A stretch of DNA of 64,000 nucleotides from Ceratodon purpureus (taxonomy: Eukaryota > Streptophyta > Bryopsida > Pseudoditrichales > Ditrichaceae): positions 14,220,430 to 14,284,429 of the forward strand of contig CM026427.1 of the NCBI GenBank assembly GCA_014871385.1, in the 5' to 3' direction. Shown in pieces: positions 1,157-47,939 of the stretch. The position numbers and the translations under genes are program-made. The notes beneath the pieces were generated by a model, which saw only the letters and a list, made by a program, of their open reading frames with translations, did no database searches and had not been told where the DNA came from. Position 1 is the stretch's first letter; each line of letters begins with the position of its first letter.

Positions 1157-1849
1157 CGAGAGAGAGAAGAGCAACAATCTTCAAATGGCAGAATATGCGT
1201 GGACTGGATATGGATGAGACATGCAGAAATCCACGCAGTATGAGTTCCAAGTGATTAACGTTTTCACCATGAACCTTTCTCTGCGACGACATGTTCTGTT
1301 TAGCTACCTTCGTGTTTCCCAAGGGAGTGAGAACTGGGTTGTAAGCGCATCGAGAAGGAGACCTAAAACGAGTGCGCAGATGATCAAGCTCCATGCTGAT
1401 AGCTTTTTTGAGCAATGGCGACAATCGAGGAATGGGAGGGTGTGTGGCCCGGGCACTAGCCAGAAGTCCGCAGTTTGATTCTGTGGTTGTGCCGTGGTAT
1501 CCTTGAAGCTTTGAATTGGTCAGGGCGCGAAGATTGTTCTGGCGTTTGTGTGTGTTTATCACAATGATGAAGAACTTGAGAGACATACTTCGGTATGTAC
1601 CACCCGAAGAGAATGAAGGTACATCCTCCTCCCACTACTATGAATTGGTTGCTTGCTAGAGTTCAGAGGTTTTCCTTCTCTGCGTTTCATTGTAGCGTGC
1701 ATAAGATTGTAAATCTCGATGGATGTTGACAAGGATATCCTGCTTCACATTGAAAGATACTGCATCACATAGTGCCATGCAGAAGCTTAGATGGTTTTAC
1801 TGTCAGAAACCGCTTCAGTGTATTAGTGTAGAATTTTGAAAGAGTAACT

Positions 1850-4800
1850 ATGTGCTCATCAGGAGATCAATCGACCGACCCAAACGAGGATCCTACTCGG
1901 AAGACTCGGAGATGGCCCATCAGCAGACGCTACATGGAAGCAGGTTTACAATTTTATGCACGTTAGGTCTATGCCCTGTATCCTTCTATTGCATTGGTTC
2001 CATGGAGGTGGACATTTCTTGTGTCTGGGCACTCTCAAGACTTAGGCACATGCTTTGGTAGACCTTGAATAATTTTTTAATAAATCAAAGTGCATTGAGT
2101 AAGGGTTTGGTTGGGGAAACAGCCTTGCAGGATATCTGCGAATACAACGACATCAGCGAGGAGCAACTGGTGTCGGCACCTGAAACCATTACATCCATTG
2201 AGATGTTTTTGTACAATTTCCCACACATCTGCTGCATGTCCTTCTTCCCCAATCTCGTATCTCTTTCTCTAGTGCAGCAGAATCTTCTGTCAATCGAAGG
2301 GCTCCATTACTGCCCACATCTTGAACTGCTTCGCCTCAGCGAAAACAGCATTCAGAGGTAATTTGACCGTCTACTTCTGCATTATAAACCTTGCAAAGGC
2401 TTGACACTAGCAGATGGACTACCTATCTGCTAGAGAAGGCTTTGTAGGTGATTTTACTGGACTTCTTGCAATTACGGGTGATTGAACTACAGTTCTGTTC
2501 AATGCGCGGCAGAAGCAGCCTAAGACACAGAATTTTTTCCCTCTACTATCGTTTATTTGCGTGTTCTCATTCTTGATTCATCCCAAAGTGCAGGATTGAA
2601 GGTCTAGGAAATTGCCTCAAATTAAAGGAGCTCTTTCTGCACAGTAACCGGATTAATCGCATAACAGGAATATCACACCTCCCGAACCTCGAGGTGCTGT
2701 GGTTGTCCAATAACGAGATACGTAACGTGGAAGGTCTTGGCGACCTACCATTGAAAGAGCTCAGCTTGGCTCGAAATCCTATCAGTCAACTGGGTGAAGT
2801 ACTCAACATGAAAGACCTGGAGTTTCTGAATGTCGCTGCCACCAACATAGGTTCCTTTAAGGTAATTCCGCCTCTCACTTTTCTTCTAATATCAGGATTA
2901 GAAGTAGCAGTGCTCAATAATGTTGCACATGGTTGATGTCATCTGCAAATCTGAAGTGATAATTTGCCCTTAAACAATGGCAAAATCTTCACTTCTTAGA
3001 GTGCGCGATCGTTCAGTTCATTCGGAGGTGTGTTAATGTCACATGTTACATTCACATGTTTACAGTGCTTTGAGATTGTTTTGTGGCCAAACGAGAACCC
3101 GTTTGCCTGCTTGTGAGTTGCTTCGTTCTAGACTGTATTTTAAGAATTATGTTGCATGTGCATAACAAGTATCATAACCAATTTTCACGAATGAATTTTG
3201 ATGCAAGAAGTAGCCTGTGATTCTTTTGTGAATTTGACTCTATGTCGGTGGGTTCCAGGAAATAGGCAACTTGACAAGATTAAAGAATTTGAAAGACCTC
3301 CGATTCTCAGACCCACAGTGGGGGGATAGTCCTCTTGCACTTCTCCACAATTACCAGGTATTGTTTGCAGTGCCTGTTTTACGAAATGATTGATTTAGGA
3401 GCACTGTTTATTCAGACTGTCAAGATTTTGGTCATCTAACGAGAAAATATAAGTTATTGCATAATTCTTTCTACGGATACGTGTGTTGGCTAAGTTATCT
3501 TAATTTCGTTCTTTCTAGCATATTTAGGACTCAGAGACCTCTATCGTTATTGTTCCAGATTTCCGTATCAAGTACATTAAGATGGTATTTACCCAATCCT
3601 ATATAAAAACTTGAACACTATAGAAAGGGTGTGCAGACGTACATTTTGTTCCGCCTCCGCCAATTACAGTCAGTGGATACAGTGGACATAACCGAAGAAA
3701 AGAAACAAGCTGCTAGAGCCATGTATACAAGGAAGCGAGTATACTACAATATGTGCATCAAATCACTCCAGCAGAACCGCAACAATAGCACGAATCCTTG
3801 TTTGAAAGCTGACTTGCAAAGAATTAAATGCTTGCAAAAGTAATTCCTTTCTTTTCTTTTGTATTCTCATTCTGTATTGACGTACAGTACAAGAAAGCTA
3901 AGAAACTTAAGTCGCTGTTTTAGAGAGATTTGTCCCAACTTATTAAAACTTATTTTCCAGTTTCTGGAATGACAACAGGAATCTTTCAAAGCTCATAAAG
4001 TCCCGCAAGGACATAGAAAAGGAGATGTGTGACCAACCGGATATTGAAACTGCAAGGACAGGGAATGATAAGAATGACTCACGAAAGAATAAGGAGTGGT
4101 GGGATCAAACGAAGGCAAAAGTCTGTATGATTGATCATGAAATCTCGAATCTGATGAAGCACCTTGATCATCTGCGCATTCAACTTCACGTAGGAAAGGC
4201 CAAGGATCAGGCTGCCGTGGATTTGAATATTCACTGGCTTATGGTTGAGCTTGATACTGGTAACCATCATATCTCTTCAGCAACCAGTTCATGTTAGAGA
4301 TAATCTATATCCTAGAACTCAATTTGTTTCAGTTACTCAGTCCAGCCTCGTCCTAACCAAACGGGCTTTATGTGTCAAGTTATCAAATTTTACAAGTGAA
4401 ATACATCCGCTGTGCGCTGTGCATTCACTGCTTAATCGGTTAGGATTATTTCGGTTTTGGATCCCATACCCAGACCTAGTCCTTCTCAAAACTTTATTTT
4501 GATAAGTCATAGGTATCACAGTTATACTGTAAATGAGATCCTGCTCTTTTAACATTGCTGCTGACAAAAATTCTATCATTTCGCAGGGGGGAACATTCGA
4601 ATGGAAGTTGGAAATTCCAAAGACGCCTGGTTCAAAAGCTGCATGGACCTCGTTATGTCGCGATTCTTTCCTGTAGACTTCGTTCCGTTCTCTATCACTG
4701 GAATGCAGGTGCTTAAGGTCACACGCATCCACAACCGATTTCTTCAAGATCGTTTCGAGCGGACAATTGAAGGTCATGTGAGTTACTACTTATCCTTCTG

Positions 4801-7800
4801 AAAGAGTGACCTTTTCCAAGCGCAATATGTTTTCATGGATTTCATTTGCGCGTGAGACACTTGATTGAAATGTTAGCCAGAGAAAAATTATGTACGCTTC
4901 AAACATGAGTTGGTGGATATCTTTTGTTGTTATAGGTACAAAAGGGCAACAAGAAGCATGTAGAATATCTTCTCTATGGAGAGACACTGCAAGCCCCGGA
5001 TGAGTTACAGTGGATTATTGAAGAAGGATTTCCGTTTTCTGCGATGGATCATACTCCGAACACCTCAACAGGAGCTGTCATTCTTTCAAATTCTATTGGC
5101 CTGGCTGATCTGTGCCGCTTGGAGGTACTGCATCCTAGATAAGTTGTCAAATCAATCGTGGTAGTCTGCAGTTATTTCAATACAGTGAATATACAATTGT
5201 CTTTTACAACCATTGGTGCCCAACAAATTATGAGATAGATTTTTGTGCAAACCACGAGTTGCCCTTTTGATTGATGGCACTTAGCAGGCCATCGCAGAGC
5301 AGTCTGCTGATGGAAGCTATAGAGGCAAAGCAACGGGTTGGCTATTGGTCGTGAAGACATGTTTAGGTGCCTCAGTTCGAGATATTGCTCACGCTTATAC
5401 AAGAAACCCACGCGCTGCTATCATAATTAATGGAGTTCTTCAGACAGGTGAACTCCCTTTTCATCCTATTGCTCACATTTCACTCACTTCAATCACCTGG
5501 TGTAGTTTTTTAGTATCATGAGGCTCAAATCTCTCGGACACAAGTGCTAATGCTTGATATCCTAAACTCTAGCTGCACTGTACTAAAACTGTAACTAGCC
5601 TCATTTAGGACCATTCATGGCCTAAATGAGCCATGAATGTTCGTAACATTGAGCCATGAGACTTTTTGCATCACTGTTACAGCGTTGCCTCAATCATCCT
5701 TCAGAACCATATTGCAACACAAATGTACTTCAATCAATCTTGGGATTTTGCAGCTTTAGATAACTGTAACGTGCGGCGAGATCTGATACTCCTCATGCTT
5801 TTGATAAGGAAAATCACATTGATGGAATCTCAATGTCTTTATTAGTCTCATGGATGCGTTTGTTTTTTATGCAGAGGGAGAAAACTTTGCTCCTGCGAAG
5901 AAAACATCGTATCCACATGCCGACTCAGTATACAGAACCCACCCTATGGATCCCACGCAGCGTTCGTGGTCAGTGTTTGACGCAGCTACAGTGGTCCCTG
6001 AATATCTAGTGGAATTTGAGTACAGTTTCAAGGAATCAGAAATTAGCAATCTCAACCCTGTCGCTTCCATCCAGAAGAATATAAAGCTTCCGAAGTCGAT
6101 AGCTTTGTCCAACGGACACACCGAGGATGCGCATCTCAGTAATTCCGAAGCAAATGGCAAATGCCAGCGCACATCACCGGAAATTGACGATCTGGTTTGT
6201 TCCACATCAAGACCCCTCACAGGAAACGGTGTAGCTCTATCTGTTGAGTATCTTCAAAGAAGGAACGGTTTGGAGGGCAGTTTTTTGCACTTGTCTTATC
6301 TCAACCTCCACAACTGTAATATCACAGGGGTTGATTTACTTCGCGGCCTTCCAAGTCTGAAAGTCCTTGTATTATCATTTAATAAGATATCTCAAATAAC
6401 TGGCTTGCAAGACTTGTGTGTGTTGGAAAGATTGGATATGAGCTACAACTTGTTGAAAAGAATTGACGGTCTAAGTGGTCTTAGTAACTTGCTCACACTT
6501 GACCTGGCTGGAAATGAAATATGGTGTTCGGATGATCTCGGTCTTCTGCAGTTGCAAGTATGCAGTTCAATCCTTTCTTGGATATGAATTTAGTATAGAG
6601 CTTGAATTCATAAGTTACAAATTCTAGATAATTGAAGCGTCGAATTTTATTTTGAATTTCGGAGTTGTGATTGATCCTATGTAGGTACCCGGGCTTCTCA
6701 ACTTGAATCTGCGAAGCAACCCTGTTGTTGATGAGTTGGCCTACCACTCTCTAGTTCTGCGAGCCTTGCCCTTGCTCGCGGAGCTCGACTGCAAGGCAGT
6801 CACCGCAGGTTAGTAAGCTCATGGGCATAGTTTCTCTCAGATTGTGTCAGGACTATAATCATTGTCCTGCTTGTAAATGTGAGGATTAACTCTCGGTAAC
6901 AAGCTTCATTGATCGCCTCTCTTGCTAACATATGAGGATCGTTGGACATGCATTTATGAAACTGATGGGTTATGTAATGAGGTGTTTTAGACAAGTGATG
7001 CACTTGTACGGAGCGAGATCAGGAGTGTTGTGCTTCCCAGGTTGTGTACCCAAAAAGAATGCTGAGCATTTTTTTTTCTTTTGTGCTGTATACTTGAGAC
7101 TCCAGAAGATCGCGTAGCAGCTTTGAGTAAATACTCCCCTCAGAACATGGTTACCCCAAGCTCGCCGGGAAGATGTGAGGTCCAGCCAGCAACGTCTAGT
7201 GTTTCATTATCCTTTAACGAGCACGATCTGGAGAATGCCATAAACTTCCATCGACCTGAACCGATTCCTGAAGCGGCGGATGAAAAGGTGGAGACAAAAG
7301 GAGCTGAACGTATTGAAAGGACCGCTCGAACAGCAACGCCAAAGTGTGGTGGGGGAAAACAACTCGGTGACCCGTTCAGATTAAGCCCCTACAGGCTAAA
7401 TCAGTTCACTAAGTTTCACAGGATAGAGACAGCTTCTAAGAGAAAGTCTGTGCATTCGGCTAAAGGAGGTCCAGCGTGCTATGAAGGTGTTGAGGAGGTT
7501 CATTTAGAGCACAGGAAGCTCAAGACTATGTATTGCTTTGACAGGTTACCAAATCTGCGGCGCCTGTTCCTATCTGGAAACGAAATCTCGGTGATTACAG
7601 GTCTTGATAATTGTACCATGCTGGAAGAGCTTATTCTAGACGACAACGTAATCAATCAGGTCCTGCCAGATTGATATTTGACTCTCAATCATGATCATGC
7701 GCATTGAATATCTAGGTCTTACAAGGATGGCTGGTACTATTGAATCGTTAAATAGTTGAGTTCCTGACTGGTCTTTAGACAATGTCTTACAGGTTTCTGG

Positions 7801-10800
7801 GATCAGCAAATTACAATCATTGTGGAGACTGGACCTGGGCTGCAATCAGCTGACCTCATGTATTAATGTCGGAGTTTTCACCACGATCGAGCAGCTCTCA
7901 ATCGATAACAACCAAATAACATCCCTTAAGGTTCAATTTTCTCCTTCAAACCTCGTCAGACATCAATGAATAGAGATCGACATTCGTGAGAAACATACTG
8001 AAGAGCAAATGACTTTCAAGCGAGGATTCATTTGAGAAACTGGGTACATTGTTTTGCAGGGATTAGAGGGTTTGGTATCCTTGATGGAGTTATATGCTCA
8101 GAACAATCGGCTCGTGAAACTAGTGGAGATCAACCATGTCCGTGATCTACCCAAACTAATGGTTGTGAACTTTTGTGGCAACGCCTTCTGTGATGTTCGT
8201 GACTACCGGTTGTATACAGTCTACTCACTTCGTAAACTAAAAGTAAGACACTGCGAACCTTTAAATGATTGTGCTTTTACTGTACGTAATACTCATGCTG
8301 ACCAACAGTGTTTAATCATTTTAGCCAGTTACCACTTAATGTGTTGAGTTCGAATAAATGCACTGAGACGTAGATAACTCTATTACACCTCATGGTTGGT
8401 ATGTTGTCATTCTGCAGGTTCTAGATAGTGTGAATGTGGACAGTACTGAATTAGCAGCTGCACGTAACAAGTATACGGGGCGTCTTCAAAAGGAGGTTGT
8501 GGAGGAGTGCGTGGGCCACAAAAATCTCGAAGCTTTACAGGTGATCATTCTGGAGTAACATCACTAACTGTGTTGAAATCTTCAAATGGATCTCTCATAC
8601 ATCTTTAAAGAACGGTCGACAACACAAGCAGGAGAAAATGTCCGAATATTTATTAAAGCACGAAGAGTTAAACTGCTCACTCGAGTTCTTACTAACCTCC
8701 ACGCGATGTTTCTTAATACCTCAAAAGGACCGGATATTACAGCTTAAGAGTTGCTTTTAAAGAGTTGGTAGGAACAAGAAAATTAATCTCTTACCTCAGA
8801 TGTCAGTGAACCTCGCCTTGAATTTTGATTGGAAGAGACTGCTCTATAAAGGTACTGAAGCTCACGTTTCAAATGAAAACGGGGGTTCTGGGCTCAGGTA
8901 TTGGACTTATCTGAGCAGAAAATACGGCATTGCGGAGATGTGTTTGAGTCGAACGAATTTCAGAATTTGAGAGAGCTCAACCTCAATAATAACCTGATCT
9001 CTTCATTGCACCCCCTCAGGTGATGTATTCATTTTTAACTTGTATCAGTTCATCACAAAAAACCATTTCTTAGCAACCATACCTCCATTAATATCGACCA
9101 GTTCTGCCTGAGCTCTAAAATGCAGTATTCAAAGTAGTTAGTCTTAGATTCAGAGATCAAGATTTCCAACAAGTATGAGTTTTCATGATGCAGGTACTTG
9201 TCAGGTCTGCTGATCTTGAGGTTAGAGAACAATAGTGTTGAAAATGGGCCATTGATACGGTCCCCCAGTCTCTCTACCAGCCCAGAATCGCTGCAATCCG
9301 GATGCGAGGGCGAAAGGCAGGGGAAAACAGTCAATTCAGTTCCGAGCACGTCCAGACCTGGTTTGGAATCACTTGAGGTGAGTCGTAGATTGGCCATCGA
9401 ACTTGCCTGGTCAGTGTGTCATGATAGAATAGATCCTGTACACCCTCTCCATGTACCTGAAATAATGTAGCACGGCATTAACTATGGTGTTGGTTTCTTA
9501 CTAAAAACTGTTCTTTAACGTGTTGTTGATGAGACATTAGGTATTGGAGTTAAGTGGGAACAACATTACCAGTATCATGTCCTTGCGACTATCTAGTTTT
9601 CCAGTGCTCAAGCATCTCTCTCTTCAAGACAACAAAATCACTAAGGTGAGAACTCTCCTTTCTAGGTTCAAAGCTGTAGAGTCTAACCCATGTTTTGCAC
9701 AGTGACTTTCAGAACTCGATAGGGTTAAAGCAGAATGCGGTATCCACTTTTAATTTCAAATGGTGATGCTCACTGGGTTCTGATGAGCTGCATATCTGAA
9801 ATGGATAATTTAGCAGTGTACAACACTTTGCGAGAATAAGTTTTGTAAACTCTCAGAAAACGTCCCAATGCACTACTTTGAATGTGGAAAGACTCTGGAT
9901 TCGGCAGAATAATCGCACAAGGCCTTGTCCGATAATTTGACATGGGTATCTCTTCATTGTGCAGGTGGATGGACTGGAAAATCTGAAATGTCTCGAACAC
10001 CTATACTTAAATCACAATAGCATAAAAGAGCTAGATCCGGGATCGTTTGCAAGCCTGCAAAACTTACGAATTCTGCACCTTGGCGACAACTCTCTCAAGA
10101 ACCTTGTGTACCTCGCGGGATTGATTTCCCTCGAGAGTTTGGACCTAACATCAAATGGCCTTACTCCTAATCGACTCGGAGGATTTGCAAGCATCGATTA
10201 CTTATCTCCATTGCCCAAGCTAACCAAACTCTGGTTGAACAACAACCCGGTAATTGAAAGCTTTGGTTGAACACCACAAAGTCCACTAGTGAGCTATCGT
10301 TGTGGAAACATTTGAACTCGTAATCGGTGTTGGAAAAGCAGCAGTTGACAGACTGATCTCTTGATGGTGGATTAACAGATGAGCAGGCAGAACCAGTATC
10401 GGATTTCCGTTATCAGCAGGCTGGAGCACCTTGAGCAACTAGATGGACGACCGATCACTCAGGTCCATCATCCAAATTTCTCAAATTTTGCCAGTTTTTG
10501 TTTCTGTTTTTGTTTTTTGATTCAACAGACAAAAGAATTTTGTGGAACACTGTGACTGATCATTGAAAGGCCTTGCTGCTTGTTAAATTCAATCACCATA
10601 CTGTGGTTTATCACCATCTTAATTCTGCAGCTGTAGTCGTCCTGGTGTTTATGTCGACAGCATTGAAACACTAAATCTTATTGCTGAATCTCAGGAGGAG
10701 AGGCAAGAAGCTGATGCATACGCAACTGGAAAGGAGCCCAACACACTCAATTTGGATCCCAACGTGCTCCTTGAGAGCACGCCCAATTCAATGACTGTGG

Positions 10801-11102
10801 GTGGCCAGATAAAGGTTCCGCTCAAAGTCACGTCCTTGAATTTTGACAGCATGTGCACCGCCAACACCGGAACCTTGAACGGGTTGCGTGGGTATGGAAT
10901 CCAACAAGCTAGCACGCAGAATCCGTCCTACAATTCACAATACAACACACAGTACAACTCACAAAAGCAATGGGAGCAGCTTGATACAAAACAGGCTGGG
11001 ACGCTTGTGCGAAAAGGTAGCAGAGGTGAGAACAAGCTCTTCATGTTGCCTTTTCAGACTTTCCTGAAAAATGTCAGCCCTGGGAAGGAGAGAGTACCGT
11101 AA
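1850..11102 (+). CDS. LRRC9: LRRC9-like leucine-rich repeat protein, 21 coding exons, 1576 aa
   Basis: Exons by splice signals and phase: 1850-1943, 2123-2357, 2594-2861, 3259-3357, 3637-3839, 3961-4259, 4587-4777, 4936-5124, 5288-5447, 5875-6557, 6685-6808, 7106-7659, 7793-7930, 8060-8242, 8418-8540, 8898-9019, 9194-9377, 9541-9645, 9965-10249, 10379-10462, 10695-11102; total 4731 nt. The order matches the animal LRRC9 family (human about 1450 aa): N-terminal LRRs (about residues 60-190), a charged helical linker with WWDQTK, a central segment with DAWFKSCMDL and VVPEYLVEFEY, then two further LRR blocks (about 715-850 and 990-1440). The central segment (about 405-630) resembles a degenerate PARP fold (see findings). 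The C-terminus has Asn/Tyr/Gln repeats. LRRC9 occurs in flagellated lineages, so a role in sperm flagella is inferred. The donor of exon 12 (GTCCTG) is weak. Exon 1 is the least certain part because no homology anchors it; the rest is well supported. Confidence 0.93.
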
Positions 11103-32660: not shown

Positions 32661-33919
32661 ATTCTTGCTAGTTGGCGATGGTTTGCGGATATGGTGTTGT
32701 TTGGCGGGTAGGGAGAGCTAGTGGAGGGGGCTGTGGAGTGGCGATGGATTGGTGATAGCGAATGTGCGGGGGGGAGGGGTGTGAGGGGGAGGGGATTGAT
32801 TGCATGCCTGTCTCTGGGGGAGGGCGTTTAGTTGACGGGAGGACTGTGGTTTCGAGGACGTGGAGTACTGGCTGGCTGGTGGCGCGTCGTCGTACCTGAG
32901 GCGGGAGTGGACGACATGGCATGTGTTGCGATACTGTGATGGGAGTTCTGGTGAGTGACGTGTTTTATGGCTTTCGTGTGGTGAGGAGTGTGGAGTGTGT
33001 GGAGGTGGATGTATTGGTAGGGGCGTGGAGGTGGTTGTTGCGCGTCTGGAGAGGGTGAGTTCGTGTGCATTGCGAGATCTGGTGTTGGCGCGGTGGAATT
33101 CACCGGGAGGCATTGTGGATAGGGGTTGGTTGTGTTTTAGTTCTGTTTGGGACTAGAATGGAGTGGTTTTGGAGTTTTGGTGACGAGAGTTTGTTGATTG
33201 AATCGTCATTTGCTAGAGGTTGTCGCGGCTGTTAGTTGTTGACCTTAGTCAAGCGTAGTACTTGGCTTGAATACGATATACTGACTGTGATTCGCACAGT
33301 CTAGGAAGCAAGGTGTCGTGCCACTATGAGCAGCACCACGTCGACTGCAGGAATCGTTGCGCGTTTTCTGCTTTGGGGACGTAGTTGGGGAGAGGATAAT
33401 TAGAGCCTGATTAGGAGGCGTATAAGAGACTGAAGCTCTGGAGTCTTCGTGGCTGGTAGGGGTTTCGTGTACTCTCTGTGGTTTGTTAAGTACTTGAGTT
33501 AAACTAGACGACCTTGTTTACTTCACGCTGAAGCTGCTACCTAGGTTCTCACGACCTTAGATAGAGTGCTCATTGGTTGGTGTCGCTGTGTTTCTGGAAT
33601 TCGCATGGACATGTAATTGGACTCTCGTAGTCGGAGACGTACCATATCTGTGATGCTCAATGTTATTGTCATTAGGTTAGAAGATTCGCATGCTAGACAA
33701 TCGGCATGTCTCAGTGATCTTGACCACGGCATACGATTGGACTAGTTTCTGGATTCGTGTGAATGAGACTTGGTTGAATATGAGCTGGAGGGGATTAACT
33801 TGGTCTGATGTCTTAAGTGCTTTCGTTGCAGATGTGACTTCTAACATATTCTTCATCGAAGTGAGAGCTGGAGGAAACCACGGTCTCCACAGATTGAGTA
33901 GCCAGGGGCTTGACTTGCC
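32661..33919 (+). other. Probable 5' UTR with leader intron of the NINJA-like gene
   Basis: This stretch is T/G-rich and holds no conserved frame, as expected for an intron in a leader. A plausible donor is GGCGGGTAGGG near 32705 and a plausible acceptor is TTTCGTTGCAG ending near 33831, leaving about 90 bases of leader before the ATG at 33920. This is inference from splice signals only. Confidence 0.4.
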
Positions 33920-36900
33920 ATGGCTGGCAATGCAGATAACCACTATGCCCCCGCAAGCAACGAATCAAATCCAGGAGGGTCGTGGGGTGCAGCCCCACCG
34001 ATCATGCACAGCTGGTGCTTGCAATCCGACGAACCAGCATCGGGGTCTCTCCAGGCAGATAGCCGTGATAGCAAGTCGCGGCTTGCGAACGATGCAGATG
34101 ACGACTGCGGTTTTGATCTAAATCTAGGTCTATCGCTCGGAGGAGGGAAGAGTAGTAAACCGAAGAGCAGGGAGAAGGAGAAGGAAGTTCTTCTAGACAG
34201 AGACACATTTCGTGACAGAGACAACTTCAGGGCTGAGATTGGAGATAGACGAGAAAGCGTTGTCTCAAAAGACGTGAATGGCGAGGAACCGTATCACGGA
34301 GGTGTCATGTTCAAACCGTTCAAGACTGAGCAGGACGAGGGTAACCCGAACCCGAACCGGGTGCAGCATTCGTTCTGGCAGGACTTGGATCGATCTGGGA
34401 GTGAGATCCAGGAAAAGGCAGTTGCTCCATCATTCCCTCCTCGTCAAATGCAAGCTCCAAGCCCCAACCAGCAGGCAACTGAGCCAAGTCGATGGGCGGG
34501 GGAGAATTCAGTGGCGGAGGATTCCAAGATGTTCGCCCAGCATATGTGGCAGGCACTGCAGGGGAAGGCAGCCCAGCCCGAGCATCAACGCGTCCCTCTA
34601 AGCCCGCAAGATGAAGCTAGCTTGATCAAAGAGCTGCAAGGTCTCCCACCGCAAGCAGTGGCAACTGCAGCCGCGTGGGCACGCGTTGTGGCTCAAGGGG
34701 GCTTTCCAATGCAGATCCTGGAAGCGATCAAGGATGGAGTCGATCCTGGGATGTCTCGTGGAATGGCATTGCAGCGATCGATGTCCATATCTAAATCGCA
34801 TTCCTCTGGTCCACATTCGGAGGTGAATCCCGCTGCATCTCCTCCCATGTCGCAGCAGACTGCTGGCCCGACTGCAGACTTGGAGAGAAGCGATTCGGAT
34901 GTCAGCAAGAACATGCAGATTGTGGAAGAGCAGCACCGGCAGGTGGCCATAATTCAGCAGCAGGAGATTGTGGAGCAGCAGCGAAAGAGGGAGTTGCAAA
35001 CGCAGAAACGGCAAGAAGCTCGGAGGAAGAGGAAAGCATTGTTGGAGGGGCAGAAGTCAAAGAAGTCATCCAAGAAGGAAGAGGAGAGGCCGGGGTCAGT
35101 TGGCCCAGGCGGAAGCCAAGGCAGCAGATCTGGGTTAGACACACCGCCCTCCTCCTTGAGAAGAACGAGTTCACTGCAACCCTCGTCCGCAATGAGCAAA
35201 GAGAATTCCGTTTCTATGGGGTCATCTCCGCCAGACAGTCAGGAGGCAGGTGGCGTTTCCAGCATCTCAGCCTTTCGCAGACCGGCGAGCACCTCATGGT
35301 TGCACAATTGGGATGGCAACAATCCGCAGATGGCAGGAATGAGCGCAGCTCCTGCGAAAGCCAAGTCTGAGAAAGATGGACGAGTGGATTCGGGTGAGCA
35401 AATGGTGGAAATCCGGCGTGCTCTGGAACGAGCGAGGGATAGGGGCGCAAAAGATAGAGGCGAGGATAGTGGAGGTCATGTGGAGTCGAGCAGTGAGGCT
35501 CGGAAAGTTGGCTCGCCTGATGTTGTGCAGATGCAGAGAATGGACCTTGACTCGAACGCTGGGGCAAGACAGGTCATGAACAGGCAGGAAGGGTCCAACT
35601 TAGGGCCTCCTCCGGGCATGATGAATAGTCCTGTTGATCCGGCGTGGATTCAAAAGATTATGGAAATGCAGATGATGATGCCCAACTTCCCTCAAATGCA
35701 GAGACGAGGTGAGGGCGGTGCTGAGAGGGCAGCTCCCATGGTGGAGCCTGAGAAAGTTTCAAAGAAAGGTCGGGCCTCCAGCCAGACGAGCTCCGGCGGG
35801 ACAGAGAGCTCTGGTGGACAAGATGAGAAGAGCGCCAATGGTGTGCGTGTGGTGCATGGGGATGCCGATGCACTGTCTTCCCCGGCAGCGAACAGTGTGG
35901 CTGGAGAACCTCGACCTAATCCGCCCAATGCAATGATGCCATCCGTAAGCAATGCGATGGCGATGGCAAACATAGCATTTCCACAGGGCGGAGGTTTTCC
36001 AATGATGCCCGGCGCCTTTCCGTTCCCGCTTCCTGGGCCGCCTGGTGGTGGTCCAGGTGGAGTACCATTCAGTGTGCCCTTCCCGTTTCCTTATCTCATG
36101 CAGTTTGCGCCCAATCCAACAACTGCAGGCGATGGAAACCCCGAGCAGCGTGCGCACCCTAACATGCCTAGCCCTTTCCAAATAGCATTACCGGCTGGTT
36201 TCAACCCACCTTTCCAAATTCAAACCCCTGAAGGGGCTGCAGCGTGGCCGTCTGCAGTGGTACGTCCACATGCGACTCCCCCTCAGTCTCCGCCTCGCAG
36301 TGCTGCAGTGAAATCGAGCCAATCTGGATTGTCTCGCGACGACGACAAGCATGGTCCTCGAGGTAGGTTTAGGGGTTTACCTTTTGTTCCTTCTGAACGT
36401 GTGAATCGTAAAGTTCAAGAGCTTCTCTGTATGGTTCTGGCTTAGAAGATACAAGACGAACCTTCACTTGGAGGCGGTGTCTGGTGTGCTAACTTTAAGA
36501 TTTTGCAATTATAATCTGCCAGGGGCAAAAGGCAAAGAGCATGCCAGGAGTCGCAACTCATCCCCTGCCAGGGACTTACCTGCACAGTCCTTGGTGAAAG
36601 CAAATTCGATGGGCAGTGGCGCATTCAACAGACTGCGTACCACAGGGGTACCTGCTAACTCCTCGCCTCTGGCTCCCCAATTTGGAATCTCCCGGTCAAA
36701 GTCAGACGCAGTGGCACTGCGAAGAGAAGGCTCAGTTGGAAGTGCATTTGCAGCGCCAGTGGAGCAGCAACAACAATTTCCACCTCCAAGTAACGGGCAG
36801 TCCAATTCTCCCACAGAAAATGGACCAAAAGGCTCCACTGGAGCTGCATCCGTTTCTCGCCCCGAGCCTGTGAATTCTCGCGGTGCTCCACCTGCAGGAG

Positions 36901-37349
36901 AAGACGCTGGCCCGTCAGGTTCTGGAGCACCTGGCAATTCACACCAGCCTGAGCATACCGCAGCGCAGAGCACTTCCGGAGCTGAAGAAGTTGTCAGAAG
37001 ACCGCACCCCACTGGGGTTTGGAGGCAGGGCTCTTTGCCAAGCTTCGAAGGCATCGCTGGGCAAGAAGCCTCTAGTCTTCGGCCAGGGGTTGCCCCAGGG
37101 GTCCACTTTGGCGGCACAGGCACCCCGCCTGACCTGCCATGGGTGACGTGCAATGGCACCATATCAGGCGTCCTGTACAGAGTGGAGAAGGGTCAGGTGC
37201 GAATCGTCTGTGCATGCCATGGGCGGCACATGACACCGGCAGAATTCGTCCAACATGCTGGATGTGGTGAAATTCCCAACCCGGAGAAGGCAATTGTCGT
37301 GGGCCCTTTCACAGTGATGTCGCAACAACCGGCCTCTGCTCAAGCATGA
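33920..37349 (+). CDS. NINJA: NINJA/AFP-family transcriptional co-repressor adaptor, 1089 aa
   Basis: Two coding exons, 33920-36362 and 36523-37349 (3270 nt). Three family hallmarks appear in order: an EAR motif DLNLGLSLG (residues 66-74) that recruits TOPLESS-type co-repressors; a basic segment with RRKRKALLEGQKSKK (about 364-388), a likely nuclear signal matching the NINJA-B region; and the C-terminal domain (about 1015-1075) with LPWVTCNGT and VCACHGRHMTPAEF, which in NINJA binds TIFY/JAZ partners. In jasmonate signalling NINJA links JAZ to TOPLESS, and the related AFPs act on ABI5. At 1089 aa it is more than twice the length of Arabidopsis NINJA (about 425 aa); the extra length is low-complexity Gln/Pro/Met/Gly-rich sequence plus a helical segment around 230-275. 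The ATG is the first in frame and directly precedes the N-terminus. NINJA versus AFP cannot be settled by eye. Confidence 0.94.

Positions 37350-45297: not shown

Positions 45298-47939
<2,642 letters not shown>

Follow-up and report, generated by a model that had tools for sequence, protein, structure and literature searches.

The window analysed here, a stretch of 64,000 nucleotides from the moss Ceratodon purpureus (assembly GCA_014871385.1, contig CM026427.1, positions 14,220,430 to 14,284,429 of the forward strand), was found to contain an LRRC9-like gene in which a predicted, degenerate ADP-ribosyltransferase (ART) domain of the PARP type is placed between two arrays of leucine-rich repeats (LRRs). 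The 22 exons of the gene were joined by hand into a single open frame of 1590 residues followed by a stop codon, and GT-AG ends were found in 21 of 21 introns; the choice of splice sites was guided by GT-AG, and exons 1-2 are the least certain. The spliced protein was found to contain a short N-terminus followed by an LRR array, a charged linker (by eye), the ART-like domain and a second LRR array (Table 1). This predicted order of LRR, PARP-like domain and LRR is the LRRC9 architecture.

Table 1. Coordinates of the LRRC9-like gene and of its parts in the window
Feature	Position	Strand	Basis
LRRC9-like gene, LRR - linker - ART-like - LRR	1564..11102	+	hand-made model, open frame, Pfam and PDB LRR matches
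Exons 3-7, N-terminal LRR array and charged linker	2123..4259	+	splice model, Pfam LRR; linker by eye
Exon 8, start of ART-like domain, V-x-R-I-x-N-x-L-x-x-x-F opening, MQVLKVTRIHNRFLQDRF (residues 453-470)	4587..4777	+	splice model, profile alignment, N part against shuffles
Exon 9, LLYGE strand and GAVILSNS stretch	4936..5124	+	splice model; alignment of GAVILSNS to PARPs unsupported
Exon 10, WLLVVKTCLGASV aligned to PARP LLFCRVTLGKSF	5288..5447	+	PARP profile alignment
Exon 11 (part), last strands RSWSVFDAATVVPEYLVEFEYSF, Ser624 and Glu636	5875..6044	+	splice model, profile alignments, C part against shuffles
Remainder of exon 11 and exons 12-22, linker, C-terminal LRR array, tail	6045..11102	+	splice model, PDB LRR matches, rest by eye

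The N-terminal part of the protein was found to contain matches to the Pfam families LRR_4 (E 1.7e-17) and LRR_9 (E 2.2e-13). The repeats located 3′ of the ART-like domain were matched by LRRs of the PDB at residues 690-762 and 691-808 of the query, which correspond to about residues 738-856 of the model, and the remaining C-terminal LRRs were assigned by eye. The query used, an LRR-ART-LRR segment of 814 residues, was found to match LRR proteins only (42 sequences at E <= 1e-10). The charged linker that separates the ART-like domain from the first LRR array (3637-4259, exons 6-7) contained about 165 residues and was helical by eye, and no Pfam match above the cut-off, apart from LRR, was found in it.

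The ART-like domain was found to contain about 235 residues, and its profile-matched part covered residues 453-650, encoded by exons 8-11 (bases 4703-6044; exon 11 in full covers 5875-6557). In the spliced frame, MQVLKVTRIHNRFLQDRF started at residue 453 (base 4703), followed by TGAVILSNS at residue 522 (base 5068), WLLVVKTCLGASV at residue 558 (base 5339) and WSVFDAATVVPEYLVEFEY at residue 625 (base 5967). All the peptides on which the initial annotation of this locus was based, VEYLLYGE included, were present in that frame and in the order given there, and its residues 477, 511 and 622 correspond to residues 491, 525 and 636 here because a different gene model was used. The interval 4587..6200, which had been assigned to the domain, was retained up to near base 6044, where the domain ends, and the bases on to 6200 were read by eye as a linker before the second LRR array.

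The initial annotation had proposed a degenerate PARP-like ADP-ribosyltransferase fold between the LRR arrays of LRRC9, with a comparison against profiles of the PARP catalytic family as one of its checks. The profile used here contained seven sequences, namely tankyrase-2, PARP10, PARP15 and PARP1 (PDB chains) and three Armatimonadota proteins (L001, L003 and L004); three of the seven members are closely related to each other. The bacterial members were obtained by a PARP1 search of genome_contigs, in which four loci were recovered from 66 pattern matches, and L002, in which the PARP frame was not found, was dropped. The corresponding PARP1 search of viral_contigs yielded 0 of 6, and a search with the PARP profile yielded 1 of 36 (L005), which was left out of the profile. 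In hhalign, the seven-sequence profile and the single LRRC9 sequence were aligned with a score of 40.7, an E value of 1.3e-5 and a probability of 80.8, and the alignment was co-linear over 156 columns from MQVLKVTR through the end of PEYLVEFEYSF. The best score among 300 shuffles of the same composition was 20.98 and the reversed sequence scored 18.4, and a hit clearly above background was thereby obtained. When 14 sliding segments of the whole protein were scored, the four reaching into residues 453-650 (301-537 to 601-837) were found to score 28.2-29.6, whereas the other 10 scored 8.8-15.8.

The N part (residues 414-543) and the C part (residues 544-650) of the domain were each found to score above 100 of 100 shuffles when taken separately. 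A profile of PARP10 and PARP15 was clearly above 100 of 100 shuffles, followed by PARP10, PARP15 and PARP1 taken singly, which were also above but narrowly, and the signal comes mostly from the PARP10/PARP15 type. The match of residues 453-650 to PARP catalytic domains is well above chance. The V-RIQN opening and the PEYLI-type ending that had been read by eye were both recovered, as the profile was found to align the MQVLKVTRIHNRFLQDRF region and the PEYL strands, and the pairing of WLLVVKTCLGASV with PARP LLFCRVTLGKSF was the same in the profile alignment. The features shared by profile with the catalytic domains of PARP10, PARP15 and tankyrase (PF00644) were the V-x-R-I-x-N-x-L opening strand and helix and the closing PEYL strands, whereas the LRRC9 domain was found to differ in having no His-Tyr-(Glu/Ile/Leu) site, in a middle part that could not be aligned and in being missed by Pfam's own model.

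Several results weigh against this assignment, and most of them favour the rival reading of a chance resemblance, with an unrelated fold containing a few PARP-like words. The middle of the domain (residues 500-600) was found to be at chance level, being equalled by 24 of 100 shuffles. Tankyrase-2 alone was likewise at chance (reached by 56 of 100 shuffles), and a profile of PARP1 and the bacterial PARPs was borderline to weak (reached by 2 of 100). Single-sequence searches with the ART-like domain gave 0 Pfam families at E <= 10, so that the gathering cut-off of PF00644 was not reached, and four PDB sequences at E <= 10 with no PARP among them; such null results are expected because the relation is so remote. 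The fold and the conservation of the domain rest on one LRRC9 sequence plus the published papers. Against chance stand the co-linear alignment over the whole domain, with a score of 40.7 against a maximum of 20.98 in the 300 shuffles, the separate significance of both ends, and the independent published results on the human protein from HHpred, FFAS03, Phyre2 and AlphaFold/FoldSeek (PMC7955679, PMC10450202), and a chance resemblance is regarded as extremely improbable. The equivalence of TGAVILSNS with GAGIYFA--S of PARPs, which had also been proposed, is unsupported from this single sequence because the middle was found to align no better than shuffles.

The active-site columns were read from 18 alignments (nine profiles or single PARPs, in local and global mode). 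The His column was found in the LLYGE strand, where it was occupied by Tyr491 by eye and by Gly492, one residue on, in all nine hhalign alignments reaching it. No His was present at this column in either register, and in the by-eye register Gly492 was at the nicotinamide-anchoring Gly position. The replacement of His by Tyr (Tyr477 of the earlier model) was therefore upheld as regards the loss of His, the residue itself being Tyr491 by eye versus Gly492 by hhalign. The catalytic-Tyr column was reached by four of the alignments, which disagreed (Gly532, Gly557 twice, and Leu536), and no Tyr was found in residues 492-550; the proposed loss of Tyr near Val511 (here 525) is supported, though its exact column cannot be fixed.

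The catalytic-Glu column was found to contain Ser624 in all six alignments reaching it, as well as by eye in the seven-sequence profile alignment. In the PARP chains, the catalytic Glu, E988 of PARP1 and E1138 of tankyrase-2, precedes the Y-I-V-Y strand and was contained in NEYIVYD of PARP1 and AEYVIYRGE of tankyrase-2, and the PEYL Glu was located 12 residues further in tankyrase-2. Several of the six Ser624 alignments were weak (local probabilities 0.9 and 4.0; global 6.4 and 8.4) and their sequences overlap, which weighs against this register; the strong ones were the whole-profile alignments (global mode probability 93.9). The distance from Ser624 to the Pro of PEY was 11 residues, which is equal to that from human Lys604 to PEY in the motif numbering of PMC7955679. 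Glu636 of PEYL was found to match another Glu of tankyrase and PARP15, a second one that is not catalytic, and in the predicted register it is a last-strand feature in common with these proteins. Glu636 (Glu622 of the earlier model) had been put forward as a retained catalytic Glu, and it was rejected as such, since the register places Ser624 in that column and Glu636 at the non-catalytic position. With Ser624 in this place the triad seems to have lost its third member too, and all three residues (His, Tyr and Glu), not two of the three, appear to be gone.

The PARP-like domain in LRRC9 is a correct sighting that was already known. The domain was described in 2021 as 'LRRC9-ART', a probable pseudoenzyme that occurs in mosses and liverworts among others, and the human domain was reported to match PARP10 by HHpred with E 6.2e-23, with Tyr474 in place of His and with LRR-ART-LRR in every homologue analysed (PMC7955679). 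According to the same article, a study of 2009 had noted the non-LRR island of LRRC9 without seeing its likeness to known domains, and LRRC9 is named in PMC4030839 only as an LRR protein with such an island. A FoldSeek search of AlphaFold models with the PARP1 ART (PMC10450202, 2023) gave 19 hits at E < 1e-5, which were the 17 canonical human PARPs together with LRRC9 and TASOR, and a review of pseudoenzymes (PMC10211241) also lists the LRRC9 domain.

The protein of the window was found to share with this family (PMC7955679) the LRR-ART-LRR order, the domain of about 235 residues, the change of His to Tyr, the loss of the catalytic Tyr and Glu, and the D-x5-PEY-x2-EFEY motif, which was intact as DAATVVPEYLVEFEY (residues 629-643). 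The PARP profile match was located between the Pfam LRR matches before it and the PDB LRR matches after it. The differences were small, with Gly after Tyr here (LLYGE, by-eye register) versus human Val475 and with Ser624 here versus human Lys604. This Gly, encoded within 4975-4980, is kept next to the Tyr that stands where PARPs have His, and human Val475 is called quite strongly conserved (PMC7955679). The pseudo-ARTs of PARP13/ZAP and TASOR share an ART fold with lost catalytic residues (PMC7955679, PMC10211241) and differ in their partner domains, LRRC9 having an LRR frame. None of six pattern matches in viral_contigs was found to encode an LRRC9 relative.

Very probably, then, the gene encodes a plant LRRC9 with the known pseudo-ADP-ribosyltransferase domain, in which transfer of ADP-ribose is no longer likely. 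Since no catalytic residue was found at any alignable column, the domain is unlikely to be a transferase, and it is doubtful whether it binds NAD as PARPs do; PARP13, in which His and Glu are absent (PMC7955679), is a precedent. The domain would no longer transfer ADP-ribose and would probably not bind NAD the PARP way. The likeliest role of the LRRC9-ART is binding or scaffolding without catalysis. Most likely it is a rigid unit that binds proteins or a ligand, flanked on either side by an LRR arc gripping partner proteins, and a leftover ligand pocket is perhaps retained. The alternative of an active but atypical enzyme, with a migrated active site or with a partner that contributes the absent residue in the way of HPF1 and PARP1, was raised in PMC7955679. 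Attention is drawn there to the strongly conserved D-x5-PEY-x2-EFEY motif as a possible counterpart of the PARP motif in which the catalytic Glu lies, and the integrity of this motif in the moss protein is in favour of the alternative. The Ser624 register speaks against that correspondence, as the Glu of PEY, which comes first in the motif, was found to align with the non-catalytic Glu of tankyrase-2; the His and Glu columns were changed and the stretch after LLYGE had no Tyr, and an active enzyme is considered improbable.

The site of action of such a non-catalytic module may be the motile flagellum or flagellar assembly. LRRC9 could tentatively be regarded as a motile-flagellum protein, in which the inactive PARP fold would serve as a structural element or ligand sensor and not as a part of innate immunity, a possibility that falls somewhat short of an even chance. 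In much of its published spread, in its detection in human sperm and in its testis expression, LRRC9 resembles a motile-cilium protein, which is why the flagellar role is suggested; the word-starts 'cili' and 'flagell' occurred 0 times in the main text of PMC7955679. In PMC7955679, LRRC9 was reported from mosses, liverworts, club mosses, green algae and alveolates and as missing from nematodes and from flowering plants except one, and the protein was detected in human sperm. The discoverers proposed an innate-immune sensor, in which the LRRs would detect a signal and the ART-like domain would relay it, by analogy with the pairing of LRR and ART (PMC7955679). That proposal leans on generic LRR function, and the sperm detection and testis expression agree at least equally well with a role in flagella or the germ line; an immune sensor is judged unlikely and the flagellar role more likely.

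A number of points weigh against the flagellar role. No LRRC9-named chain was found among the 42 PDB sequences at E <= 1e-10, and the solved axoneme structures therefore seem to lack LRRC9; the same 42 were found to include other ciliary LRR proteins, among them DRC3, LRGUK and dynein light chain 1. Arthropoda and Porifera both have flagellated cells. LRRC9 was reported as absent from these two groups and as present in the water lily Nymphaea colorata and in Fungi, its mRNA was highest in brain and pituitary as well as testis, and its protein was elevated in tonsil, oesophagus and seminal vesicle (PMC7955679). No link between LRRC9 and cilia was found among the literature matches listed, in a search with most subscription journals outside its scope.

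Elsewhere in the window, a Pfam scan of eight other reading frames was found to give a match in two. The open frame at 36405-37346 (+) contained a Tify-domain-binding domain (TDBD, E 2.2e-8) and was NINJA/AFP-like by eye, with a long open reading frame without a Pfam match located upstream of it (33914-36442). The frame at 45924-46385 (-) contained a fragment of an AAA ATPase (E 1.2e-9), which resembles a 26S proteasome regulatory ATPase exon (named by eye). The TDBD frame suggests a land plant as host, and taken together with the AAA fragment and the published spread of LRRC9 a bryophyte is probable.

The reading of this locus is an independent rediscovery, by eye and from raw DNA, of the remote-homology assignment of 2021; this is to the credit of the reading, but no new domain is added by it. 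The remaining gain is narrow, in that the loss seems to extend to the third catalytic residue, since the conserved Glu lies off the catalytic column. Moss sperm swim, and with the published spread of LRRC9 a flagellar role would be directly testable in mosses.

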